DNA of 64,000 bases, from NCBI GenBank assembly GCA_003281415.1, contig QCCC01000002.1, forward strand, positions 1-64,000, given 5' to 3'. Shown in pieces: positions 1,490 through 12,133 of this stretch. Positions within the stretch are counted from its first letter, which is position 1, and each line of letters begins with the position of its first letter. The notes beneath the pieces were generated by a model. It saw only the letters and a program-made list of their open reading frames with translations. It made no database searches and was not told the origin of the DNA. The DNA comes from Prochlorococcus sp. AG-347-K15. Its GTDB lineage: Bacteria; Cyanobacteriota; Cyanobacteriia; PCC-6307; Cyanobiaceae. The position numbers and the translations under genes are program-made.

Positions 1490-1663
1490 TTAAATTTGTT
1501 CAGTTATGGAAATCTGGCTTATATTATTAACTTTTTTTTCTCTATATTTCGTTAGGAAAAATACCATTGAGCTAAAAACAACTAAAAATCCTATTAATGA
1601 TATTCGATAGAAAAGGTCATCAGACATATCAAAAAAAGCTGATCTTTTAAATTTGTTTCTCAT
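1490..1663 (-). CDS. Small membrane protein (57 aa)
   Basis: Below the ORF-track cutoff. It begins MRNKFKRSAFFDMSDDLFYR, has one hydrophobic helix (ISLIGFLVVFSSMVFFL) and a polar tail. The ATG directly follows a T7 run that belongs to the repeated hairpin element at 1664-1711, so there is no room for a Shine-Dalgarno sequence. A 34-aa plus-strand ORF (1506-1610) overlaps it, but the minus reading has more protein-like composition. Confidence 0.5.
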   Translation of the reverse strand: MRNKFKRSAFFDMSDDLFYRISLIGFLVVFSSMVFFLTKYREKKVNNISQISITEQI

Positions 1664-1711
1664 CAAAAAAAGAGGGTTTTATCCCTCTAAGTTTAGATCG
1701 ACTGTCAATCA
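1664..1711 (-). promoter_or_regulatory. Repeated hairpin/T-run leader element, copy 1
   Basis: On the minus strand: TTGACAGTCGATCTAAACTT, then a perfect 6-bp stem (AGAGGG/CCCTCT) with an ATAAAA loop, then T7, G and the ATG of the 57-aa gene. It resembles an intrinsic terminator placed immediately before a start codon. A near-identical copy lies at 9862-9909. Confidence 0.6.
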
Positions 1712-2461: not shown

Positions 2462-2707
2462 TTGCTAATACCATTTAATTAAATCCAAATTAGTTTAGAG
2501 GTCTAATTTTAATCAACATCAAATAATACAACTCACGGTAAATTTAGTTCAATCAAATTAAAAATATATAATTCTGTAATATCAAACTATGATAATTGGT
2601 CGAGGAAAGTTTGGAAAAAAATATAGAAATAGATTGCTTGATCAAGACTTTTTATTTTTGGAATAATTGACAGTAGATCTAAAATTGGAATGGTATTTAA
2701 GTATTAA

Positions 2708-8589: not shown

Positions 8590-8736
8590 TTAATTGCAAC
8601 AAACCAAGCAATCTTCTTGATTTGGATAATCTATACATTCTTTATTTAAAGTTTCTTCTAAAAAATCCACTTTCTTAACATAATCAAGATCTTTGAATTC
8701 TTTGTTTGGAACCGTGAATTGTGTTTGTAGTTTCAT
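8590..8736 (-). CDS. Small cysteine-ended protein (48 aa)
   Basis: Starts MKLQTQFTVPNKEFKDLDYV and ends ECIDYPNQEDCLVCCN, with four cysteines in the last 16 residues. The C-terminal C-x8-C-x2-CC pattern could bind metal or form disulfides. A good AGGAG Shine-Dalgarno lies 7 nt before the ATG. It lies 15 nt after the 33-aa gene on the same strand. Family unknown. Confidence 0.6.
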   Translation of the reverse strand: MKLQTQFTVPNKEFKDLDYVKKVDFLEETLNKECIDYPNQEDCLVCCN

Positions 8737-8751: not shown

Positions 8752-8853
8752 TTAATACTGTTTTTTGAATCCATTCCAAGTTTGAGAAAACCTTAATCCC
8801 AAATAAGAAATTAAAATTGTCCAAAATAAAATCTCTATACCTAAATTAGTCAT
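8752..8853 (-). CDS. Small single-helix membrane protein (33 aa)
   Basis: MTNLGIEILFWTILISYLGL followed by a short basic tail (KKQY). It has a very strong Shine-Dalgarno (AAAGGAGG) 8 nt before the ATG, one of the best in the window, which supports translation despite the size. First gene of a pair with the cysteine-ended 48-aa protein. Confidence 0.6.
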   Translation of the reverse strand: MTNLGIEILFWTILISYLGLRFSQTWNGFKKQY

Positions 8854-9326: not shown

Positions 9327-9452
9327 TCATTCATCTAATCTATCTGCGTATTCTCTTAAAATCTCAGCCATCTTCTGAGGTGGAATTTCTTGTTGATATT
9401 CTCTACATAAATCAAAAAATTTATCTAAGAAATCTTTCATTGAAGAGGACAT
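9327..9452 (-). CDS. Small soluble helical protein (41 aa), micro-operon last gene
   Basis: MSSSMKDFLDKFFDLCREYQ, then IPPQKMAEILREYADRLDE: two amphipathic helices separated by a PP turn. A second in-frame ATG 12 nt downstream could also be used. It starts 4 nt after the stop of the 31-aa gene. The length and pattern look like a conserved small Prochlorococcus protein; function unknown. Confidence 0.6.
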   Translation of the reverse strand: MSSSMKDFLDKFFDLCREYQQEIPPQKMAEILREYADRLDE

Positions 9453-9456
9453 AAAA

Positions 9457-9552
9457 TTAGCGTTTCATTTTGAAAGTTAAGTATGCAAACCCACCAAGTA
9501 ATAAAAGGCTCACAACCCCATAGGTAATCGCTATGCCGTACATGTGCGTCAT
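9457..9552 (-). CDS. Small membrane protein (31 aa)
   Basis: MTHMYGIAITYGVVSLLLLG followed by GFAYLTFKMKR: one transmembrane helix and a basic end. The ATG overlaps the preceding stop (ATGA), so translation is probably coupled. Fourth cistron of the micro-operon at 9327-9861. Confidence 0.6.
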   Translation of the reverse strand: MTHMYGIAITYGVVSLLLLGGFAYLTFKMKR

Positions 9553-9689
9553 TTATTTATAAAGACATAAGCAGAATATAAATAAACCAAGAAAACTCCA
9601 ATAGCAATGGAACTTCCATAAAGAAGAAAGTTCCAAAATCTAAATAATTTAGGTTTTTTAAATTCTTTTTCTTCTTCTTTAGTAATCAT
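9549..9689 (-). CDS. Small membrane protein (46 aa)
   Basis: A charged N-terminus (MITKEEEKEFKKPKLFRFWN), then one hydrophobic helix (LLYGSSIAIGVFLVYLY). Both ends overlap neighbouring cistrons by ATGA, which strongly supports that this reading frame is used. No family recognised. Confidence 0.65.
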   Translation of the reverse strand: MITKEEEKEFKKPKLFRFWNFLLYGSSIAIGVFLVYLYSAYVFINK

Positions 9690-9802
9690 TTAGTTTCTTT
9701 TTCTTTTTTGGCAGCATTACCTTTTGCTCTTAATACCAAAGTTATCGTAAGGGCAGCGCTTAATATTACAGCATCAATTAATAGGTGCGGGGAAATATTC
9801 AT
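9686..9802 (-). CDS. Small membrane protein (38 aa)
   Basis: MNISPHLLIDAVILSAALTI, then TLVLRAKGNAAKKEKETK: one helix and a strongly basic tail. Its start overlaps the stop of a 19-codon upstream ORF (TGATG) and its stop overlaps the next start (ATGA). Possible stator-like or assembly peptide; function unknown. Confidence 0.6.
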   Translation of the reverse strand: MNISPHLLIDAVILSAALTITLVLRAKGNAAKKEKETK

Positions 9803-9861
9803 CAGCTGAAAAGAGAAATAAGAAGAGTCATTATCTTTTCAGCAATAAATCTATTAAACAT
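9802..9861 (-). CDS. Possible 19-aa leader peptide, first cistron of the micro-operon
   Basis: MFNRFIAEKIMTLLISLFS. The ATG follows the T-run of the repeated hairpin element, exactly as the start codons do at 1663 and 12996, and the stop overlaps the next ATG (TGATG). It may be a coupled leader or an independent micro-protein. Confidence is limited by the length. Confidence 0.4.
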   Translation of the reverse strand: MFNRFIAEKIMTLLISLFS

Positions 9862-9909
9862 TAAAAAAGAGGGGTTTATCCCTCTAAGTTTAGATCGACT
9901 GTCAATCAC
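9862..9909 (-). promoter_or_regulatory. Repeated hairpin/T-run leader element, copy 2
   Basis: Minus strand: TTGACAGTCGATCTAAACTT, a hairpin (AGAGGG, ATAAAC, CCCTCT), T6, A and ATG. It is nearly identical over about 41 nt to copy 1. Here it also lies about 70 nt downstream of the 9955-10110 gene, so it could act as that gene's terminator. Confidence 0.6.
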
Positions 9910-10951: not shown

Positions 10952-11950
10952 CAGTTTAAGAAATTAAGTATCTTCTTTAAGTGCAAGTTAACAACCTTAT
11001 TTTTATTTGCAATAGAGATATTTAACTAAATTAACTCAAATAAGTTATTCAATTTTCAGAAAGTAATTAATTTAAATATTAAAACCTTCAAAAAAAACTT
11101 AAAAAAATCAAGAAAAATTTTTAATTGAATTAGATGGAACTTCTATTGATACCAGTGACTCGCCATAATGAGATTCTGCTGATCTTATTAGTAACCAGTA
11201 AAAAAAGTTAACTAAAGCTTTCTCCACGAGGATTTAGTAACTAATTTAAATAACCTAATAATTTTTGTAATAGCAATATACAAAATAAAATTATCAAGCA
11301 ATCAAGATATTTATCTCATAATAAGTTTAGATTAATATTAGTTAAGAAAAATTTGCTTCTAAGGCTTTAGGCAGCGTATTAAATCCACCTGGTTTATTAG
11401 ACTTTAGCCTGCTCTATTTTTTAGCAAAAGAAAAACAAAACTACAAGGGCGCTTAATTGCCAATTACTATAATTCATTCTGAACTATCCTTTATTCATAA
11501 ATTAGATCAAGATTATCTGAGCATATGTTGGAGTAATTTATTGTATAGCTTTGCTACAAGACTGTAGTTATATCAATCGATTCAGTATTTTTGCTCATTG
11601 ATATATTCATACTTGGAATAATATTATTATTGATGCCTAAGGAAGGTTCGACTTTGAAAAAAATAATTAAATATCTGAAATTATTGAAGTTGAGAATTGA
11701 TATTCTCAATGCAGAGACTGAATTAAAATTTATATTGGAAAATCCATAATGGGATTCCCACATTGCCCGATTTGTGTAGTTTTAGCATTTGTTTCAGTTT
11801 TTATGGGAGTTACTCGTAGTTATATGTTCTATATTCTTTTTAGGGAGTTTGTACTAGCAGAATATAATTTTAAATCGAAGTTTAGTTTCTATTGATTATT
11901 GACTTCTAAGTATAAATACTTTATAAATAGATTGTAGTGATAACTACAAA
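10952..11950. other. About 1 kb with no convincing gene
   Basis: The longest gene-free stretch of the window. It holds only weak ORFs: a 69-aa minus ORF in the track (11554-11763), and on the opposite strand a 31-codon ORF from TTG 11654 (KKIIKYLKLLKLRIDILNAE) with more protein-like composition. Neither has a Shine-Dalgarno sequence. Probably eroded sequence, or regulatory sequence for the riboswitch-like leader that follows. Confidence 0.4.
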
Positions 11951-12030
11951 ATCGTCCAATCTACCATCTGATAGACCGCAGTACGACTCAAGCCATAGGA
12001 CGGGGACTTGAGCAAGTTAAGGAGCTGCAT
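11951..12030 (+). promoter_or_regulatory. Candidate glutamine-II (Downstream-peptide) riboswitch
   Basis: The layout matches the glutamine riboswitch family of marine cyanobacteria. P1 is CGTCC at 11953 against AAGGAGC at 12019. A short P2 pairs TCTA (11960) with TAGA (11972). A conserved-looking ACCGCAGTACG follows (family pattern close to ACGGAAGTAGG). P3 pairs CTCAAG (11987) with CTTGAG (12007). The 3' P1 strand contains the Shine-Dalgarno AAGGAG of the next ORF, so ligand-stabilised P1 would hide it. This class sits before short ORFs in Prochlorococcus and Synechococcus. Matched by memory of the consensus, not by a covariance search. Confidence 0.6.
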
Positions 12031-12031
12031 C

Positions 12032-12133
12032 ATGGTAAACATGTATTTCAATGGAAAATCATTCGTATATTGTAGAAAACAAGAAGAAAAGGTGATAAAG
12101 CTTACTTATAGAGGATCTATATACTTGAAATAA
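12032..12133 (+). CDS. 33-aa DUF4278-like downstream peptide
   Basis: MVNMYFNGKSFVYCRKQEEK followed by VIKLTYRGSIYLK. The KLTYRG-x2-Y core is the DUF4278 signature seen in many small cyanobacterial proteins. An AAGGAG Shine-Dalgarno lies 7 nt upstream, inside the candidate glutamine riboswitch. Length and position fit the short ORFs that follow 'Downstream-peptide' RNAs, so it is probably nitrogen-responsive. Molecular role unknown; a regulator of nitrogen assimilation is one possibility. Confidence 0.7.
   Translation: MVNMYFNGKSFVYCRKQEEKVIKLTYRGSIYLK

Follow-up and report, generated by a model that had tools for sequence, protein, structure and literature searches.

The window, a 64,000-nt stretch of the Prochlorococcus sp. 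AG-347-K15 genome, carries on its minus strand a head-to-tail chain of five very short open reading frames (ORFs), here called A to E, with a dispersed 5′ element directly upstream.

9862-9908, minus strand: dispersed 5′ element, directly before the ATG of A
9861-9802, minus strand: A, hydrophobic leader peptide of 19 aa (MFNRFIAEKIMTLLISLFS), its stop overlapping the start of B (TGATG)
9802-9686, minus strand: B, predicted single-helix membrane protein of 38 aa with a basic C-terminal tail, ATGA overlap with C
9689-9549, minus strand: C, predicted single-helix membrane protein of 46 aa with a charged N-terminus, ATGA overlap with D
9552-9457, minus strand: D, predicted single-helix membrane protein of 31 aa
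9452-9327, minus strand: E, predicted soluble helical-hairpin protein of 41 aa, an optional member

The first-pass annotation of this DNA had reported five ORFs of 19, 38, 46, 31 and 41 codons at these positions, and its coordinates, sizes and junctions (TGATG for A/B, ATGA for B/C and C/D, and a 4-nt gap, TTTT, for D/E) proved correct to the base; it had missed the element. A-E is the sole chain of more than three small ORFs within the window. Among 200 sequences simulated with an order-3 Markov model to match the window in length and composition, the longest chain comprised two ORFs in 81, three in 113 and four in 6, and never five.

Two further tiny minus-strand ORFs adjoin the chain (48 aa at 8590-8736 and 33 aa at 8752-8853, the latter predicted to form one helix), and both are kept in most of 80 named relatives with mean identities of 89% and 96%, respectively. 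On the plus strand, a Glutamine-II riboswitch aptamer lies at 11950-12012 (Rfam RF01704, 60.9 bits, above gathering), and a conserved short ORF (12008-12133) begins at its 3′ end.

Coding signal, conservation and protein properties

A DNA match to the locus is present in 146 of the 151 genomes of the window's genus, which we take to be a high-light (HL) one, and is nearly full length in ~75 of them; the named relatives are all Prochlorococcus or uncultured Synechococcaceae. Gene order and overlaps are both kept in HL relatives. The A/B junction is TGATG or TAATG in 109 of 122 Prochlorococcus relatives, and ATGA joins B to C in 117 of 133 and C to D in 107 of 114, counts that include some genomes entered twice under different identifiers (the counts of gene content given below use unique sequences). 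The D-E gap varies between 3 and 12 nt. Frames A-D are open across close relatives with few exceptions, and the E frame is often broken, mostly by a change of ATG to ATA and a frameshift.

Purifying selection is evident in all five genes. IQ-TREE gave ω values of 0.45 (A), 0.21 (B), 0.24 (C), 0.22 (D) and 0.19 (E) from 44-95 unique intact sequences per gene, which are rough estimates given the short alignments and many sequences, and which were drawn from intact copies only, such that the value for E describes the lineages that retain it. Parsimony estimates were 0.33-0.52 in the true frame (z from 3.9 for A to 11.5 for B), compared with 1.06-3.12 in the two wrong frames used as a control. The coding signal of A is the weakest, yet significant (z 3.9, ω 0.45-0.52); a non-coding RNA reading of A, considered since A is often conserved along with the element, was ruled out by this frame test. 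A-E are real protein genes under purifying selection, and their stop/start overlaps are conserved across relatives. Conserved overlaps together with intact frames characterize a translationally coupled operon, with the coupling itself read from the sequence.

Hydropathy and hydrophobic moment bear out the earlier view that the three middle ORFs encode single-helix membrane proteins and the last a soluble, amphipathic one. The best 19-residue Kyte-Doolittle means are 2.17 (B), 1.91 (C) and 1.97 (D), with one hydrophobic segment each, a basic C-terminal flank on B and D and a charged N-terminus on C; E is hydrophilic and amphipathic, with a maximum moment of 0.71. AlphaFold2, run on shallow alignments, predicted a helical hairpin for E (residues 3-19 and 25-40; pLDDT 87.5) and one helix for C (residues 4-45; pLDDT 83). 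That no family could be recognized also holds across Pfam, NCBIfam, PHROGs, PADLOC and PDB sequences, in which A-E gave chance-level matches only; B-E had no match to the PADLOC phage-defence models. PDB profile searches returned no significant match to any chain, including the small subunits of photosystems, cytochrome b6f and NDH, and no similarity to known complex subunits was found. Matches of C to PsbJ (E 0.6) and to TOM5 (E 0.07) were at chance level.

A dispersed 5′ element at start codons

The element includes a near-palindrome, GATTGACAGTCGATC (9907-9893), which largely coincides with a 17-mer, ATTGACAGTCGATCTAA (9906-9890). A TAnnnT box (TAAACT, 9892-9887) follows, and then a hairpin (AGAGGG/ATAAAC/CCCTCT, 9885-9868), a T-run to 9863, one base and the ATG of A. 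In its general form the 17-mer is followed by two bases and a T that complete TAnnnT, then by the hairpin, the T-run and an ATG. The TTTT before the ATG of E looks like what is left of such a T-tract.

Several properties of this arrangement suggest a function in transcription. In an alignment of 40 diverse copies the T, A and final T of the box are invariant, the final T lying outside the search pattern, and the box stands at a fixed place as expected of a −10 box, consistent with a putative promoter. The window copy also has the form of an intrinsic terminator, a G+C hairpin followed by a T-run; its RNA fold has an energy of −13.2 kcal/mol (z −2.9). Across copies the stem is of one of two types, AGAGGG...CCCTCT or AGGGGC...GCTCCT, which keep pairing with different bases, and stems of at least 6 pairs occur in 51% of copies compared with 16% after shuffling; the hairpin has decayed in some copies. 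A search of 7-13 kb against Rfam gave only a sub-threshold sau-27 match at the element, on the opposite strand and judged to be chance.

We searched for further copies using the 17-mer with up to 3 mismatches, with the reversed 17-mer as control. Two others lie in the window.

1663-1709, minus strand: second intact element copy, directly before a 57-aa ORF (MRNKFKRSAFFD...)
2666-2682, plus strand: degenerate element copy, 17-mer with 1 mismatch and no clear T-tract or ATG

The window's own, incomplete genome has 10 matches, and six complete HL genomes have 23, 18, 15, 21, 24 and 18, compared with 0-5 control matches in the HL genomes tested. Three low-light genomes (putative SS120, NATL2A and MIT9313) are at background, with 6, 5 and 2 matches and 4, 4 and 3 in the control. 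We take some of the complete genomes examined to be those of MED4, AS9601, MIT9215, MIT9515, NATL2A, SS120 and MIT9313. In the putative MED4 genome the copies cluster at 347-360 and 1347-1365 kb. Many small genes that are unrelated to one another have the element only 0-2 nt ahead of their ATG. Where an exact 17-mer is accompanied by a T5 run (35 distinct contexts), 25 have an ATG 0-2 nt after the T-run, which is true of 53 of the 952 ordinary T5 runs in the window. The ORFs opened after the element (up to 3 mismatches) are mostly 30-250 codons long, those after the control mostly fewer than 25. On one contig (G000:C19, locus L200, 4369-12986) we observed five same-strand element copies, or parts of copies, within 9 kb, several of them directly before a small ORF, in an arrangement resembling a cassette array.

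The element is also found in viral sequences. Two IMG/VR contigs (L227 and L228) with T4-like phage genes (UvsX, a DnaB-type helicase and MazG; PhoH and an exonuclease) carry it before small genes; on one T4-like contig it directly precedes E (95% identity), and on one it lies just upstream of uvsX. Cyanophages can therefore carry these modules, although such contigs were rare in our search. Five more IMG/VR contigs contain the exact 17-mer. On L224 it is followed by a second-type hairpin, whereas four of the five have no hairpin, T-run or ATG and look like chance matches. Nothing relevant turned up in isolate phages when C, E and the element were searched for, and weak matches in Vibrio and Bacillus phages were judged to be chance.

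Two other readings of the element were weighed against a promoter-leader. First, it could be mainly a recombination site or mobile repeat, its place before the ATG reflecting insertion or exchange at gene boundaries; it is multi-copy and clustered with different genes downstream, and repeats have reportedly been found in HL islands (PRE1, attributed to Coleman, 2006). We regard this as unlikely given the fixed polarity, the spacing of 0-2 nt to the ATG in most contexts and the conserved TAnnnT box; in addition, a Pfam search of ten neighbouring proteins found no recombinase. Second, the hairpin and T-run could be an attenuator that acts by termination/antitermination control, in a longer leader whose transcription starts further upstream. 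Such an attenuator would account for the stability of the terminator-like hairpin and for the paired changes that separate its two stem types, but we consider it quite unlikely, as copies show no strong conservation upstream of the 17-mer, no alternative antiterminator fold was seen, and TAnnnT is conserved directly before the hairpin.

Arrangement of the members in other genomes

The content of the chain differs among genomes. The complete set ABCDE is the commonest arrangement, with 84 unique loci, followed by E (16), D (9), BC (8), ABC (7), AB (6), ABCD (5), C (4), BCDE (3) and rarer forms, and E is full length in 46 of the 87 operons with a recognizable E. Neighbours are the same as the window's in many HLII-type relatives (most neighbours at 64 of 80 named loci), and in other genomes A-E members have different neighbours. 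Across 35 sampled genera of the order, E reaches 14, B and D reach 2 each, and C is limited to 1, the window's genus. Stand-alone copies of D occur in many HL genomes, distant relatives of D occur in a second genus, and so do some of the distant relatives of B, which are 26-33 aa long. The element directly precedes stand-alone copies of E and two stand-alone copies of C.

Some members are also found in micro-operons of different composition. In the putative MED4 genome, E and D belong to a six-cistron, element-led chain at 358.8-359.6 kb (L172 6796-7610, minus strand) in the order element, E, a 61-aa ORF, D, a 51-aa cysteine-rich ORF and one-helix ORFs of 37 and 48 aa, with junctions that are mostly TAATG and ATGA. 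E stands there at 359,610, and an element-led A-B-C lies elsewhere in that genome, at 816.2 kb. The second genus includes one genome that is putatively NATL2A. In this genus an ATGA overlap links a B-like ORF with a hydrophobic ORF of 53 aa, and a Nif11-domain ORF is joined to a D-like ORF behind it by a TAATG overlap (L161 6733-7091, L164 6903-7252); in one of these genomes (L164), four hli-type ORFs lie near the B-like and D-like genes. In several other genera we noticed a conserved protein of ~215-232 aa without a Pfam match ~40 nt downstream of E (L181, L182, L185, L186, L188, L190, L195 and L199). This protein, of ~225 aa, looked recombinase-like, an assignment that we set aside for want of Pfam support.

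The first-pass annotation had proposed that A-E are a co-produced set, for example as parts of a single membrane complex or as aids to its assembly. Part of this proposal fits the data: strict overlaps are conserved in most relatives, ABCDE is the commonest arrangement, and B and C usually occur together. However, members of an obligate multi-subunit complex would be inherited together, and the partial sets and stand-alone copies of D, E and C, which are common, speak against an obligate set. About half of the operons moreover have a broken or altered E, D and E in putative MED4 and the distant B and D relatives in the second genus have other operon partners, and no member resembles a known complex subunit. 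We therefore consider a single complex fairly improbable. A selfish or toxic cassette of small membrane peptides (type I toxin-like or holin-like), borne by islands or phages, would suit tiny hydrophobic peptides in mobile modules and the presence of E and other element-led genes on two cyanophage contigs, but it is very unlikely, because most HL genomes keep three different membrane peptides side by side, under purifying selection and as a rule among the same neighbours, and neither an antitoxin pair nor a PADLOC match was recognized.

Interpretation and relation to known systems

The explanation that we favour, at roughly even confidence, is that A-E form an element-driven, mosaic, translationally coupled operon whose accessory membrane peptides probably serve acclimation to light or stress. 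The element would be a compact, insulated promoter-leader, in which the hairpin and T-run would halt incoming transcripts and the near-palindrome beside the TAnnnT box would give rise to a new one, whose short leader is rich in pyrimidines. Translation would begin at A with no Shine-Dalgarno sequence and be handed on to B, C and D through stop/start coupling, A being a short leader whose translation feeds that of B. The three one-helix membrane peptides B, C and D would thereby be made together, as accessory or assembly factors whose most likely site of action is the thylakoid or inner membrane when light or another stress sets in, and E would be an optional soluble helper that many lineages are now losing. 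As a whole, the operon would be a mosaic of small mobile gene modules common to genomic islands and, rarely, T4-like cyanophages.

The median 5′UTR in MED4 is ~29 nt (PMC3898218), and initiation at pyrimidine-rich tracts of the S1 type has been proposed for this strain (PMC5607370); both fit the short CU-rich leader of the element. If transcription started 6-8 nt after TAnnnT, the start would fall inside the hairpin, which would then serve upstream transcripts only, and another architecture of the element is possible. A membrane or stress role for the peptides is suggested by genome context and distribution. Light or stress is a likely signal, although this step is weak: outside HL genomes the one-helix families are known here from a single further genus, where hli-type genes lie close by, and putative MED4 element copies fall in or near islands with stress-responsive genes, as described for those regions (PMC2518516).

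More tentatively, and on balance doubtfully, portable cassettes of promoter-leader and start codon may move between islands and T4-like cyanophages and combine into overlapping membrane-protein micro-operons that tune membranes under stress, which would be a cassette and regulon system undescribed before. Prochlorococcus is among the most abundant ocean phototrophs, and its genomic islands carry what are said to be ecological adaptations. Genes of the size of A-E are easily missed by annotation, and the shared 5′ element ties these five to dozens of other small genes; together they point to a common, overlooked pool of small proteins in a very abundant ocean phototroph. If the element is a promoter, a single map of transcription starts would define the whole regulon and name the conditions for protein tests. 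Element-led genes in cyanophage contigs would likewise add unannotated small proteins to the traffic already known for hli genes.

Several known systems invite comparison. Tycheposons are tRNA-associated mobile elements with a tyrosine recombinase; the sole tRNA within the window is a tRNA-Val at 42 kb, and the ten neighbouring proteins searched in Pfam include no recognized recombinase, so within the window A-E do not have the make-up of a tycheposon. PRE1 is reportedly a repeat element of high-light Prochlorococcus islands (Coleman and colleagues, 2006). Like PRE1, the element is short, multi-copy (10-24 matches per HL genome) and clustered in HL strains, its island location being judged by position; the 0-2 nt spacing to start codons and the TAnnnT box are observations made on the element here. 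A 13-mer of the element was not found in the text of the open literature searched, and the element may be the published PRE1, the likeness being one of description rather than sequence. Each ingredient is of a known kind, be it small one-helix proteins, operons with overlapping genes or repeats in HL islands, and it is the combination of a promoter-like element abutting the start codon with interchangeable tiny membrane cistrons that appears undescribed in the open literature searched, which covered few subscription papers.

Among proteins, B, C and D are alike in size (~30-46 aa) and in their one helix to the small subunits of photosystems, cytochrome b6f and NDH-1, for which likeness of a single-helix fold would be uninformative. 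High-light-inducible proteins (HLIPs) are one-helix, multi-copy proteins borne by islands and phages. They share with B, C and D a small size, the one membrane helix and multiple copies, but inspection of B, C and D showed no chlorophyll-binding motif of the NGRxAM type (NGRxAMxGF), which A-E lack altogether, and neither Pfam nor NCBIfam gave a match; hli-type ORFs occur in the same region of the window, at 18.8-19.9 kb, and HLIPs of cyanophages are known (PMC5082946). The cyanobacterial micro-proteins HliR1, Norf1, NsiR6 and Norf4 are likewise under 80 aa and were first overlooked, and HliR1 is a light-induced peptide predicted to be transmembrane (PMC5126843); the likeness to A-E is by description, those proteins having been studied as single genes rather than as members of overlapping operons.
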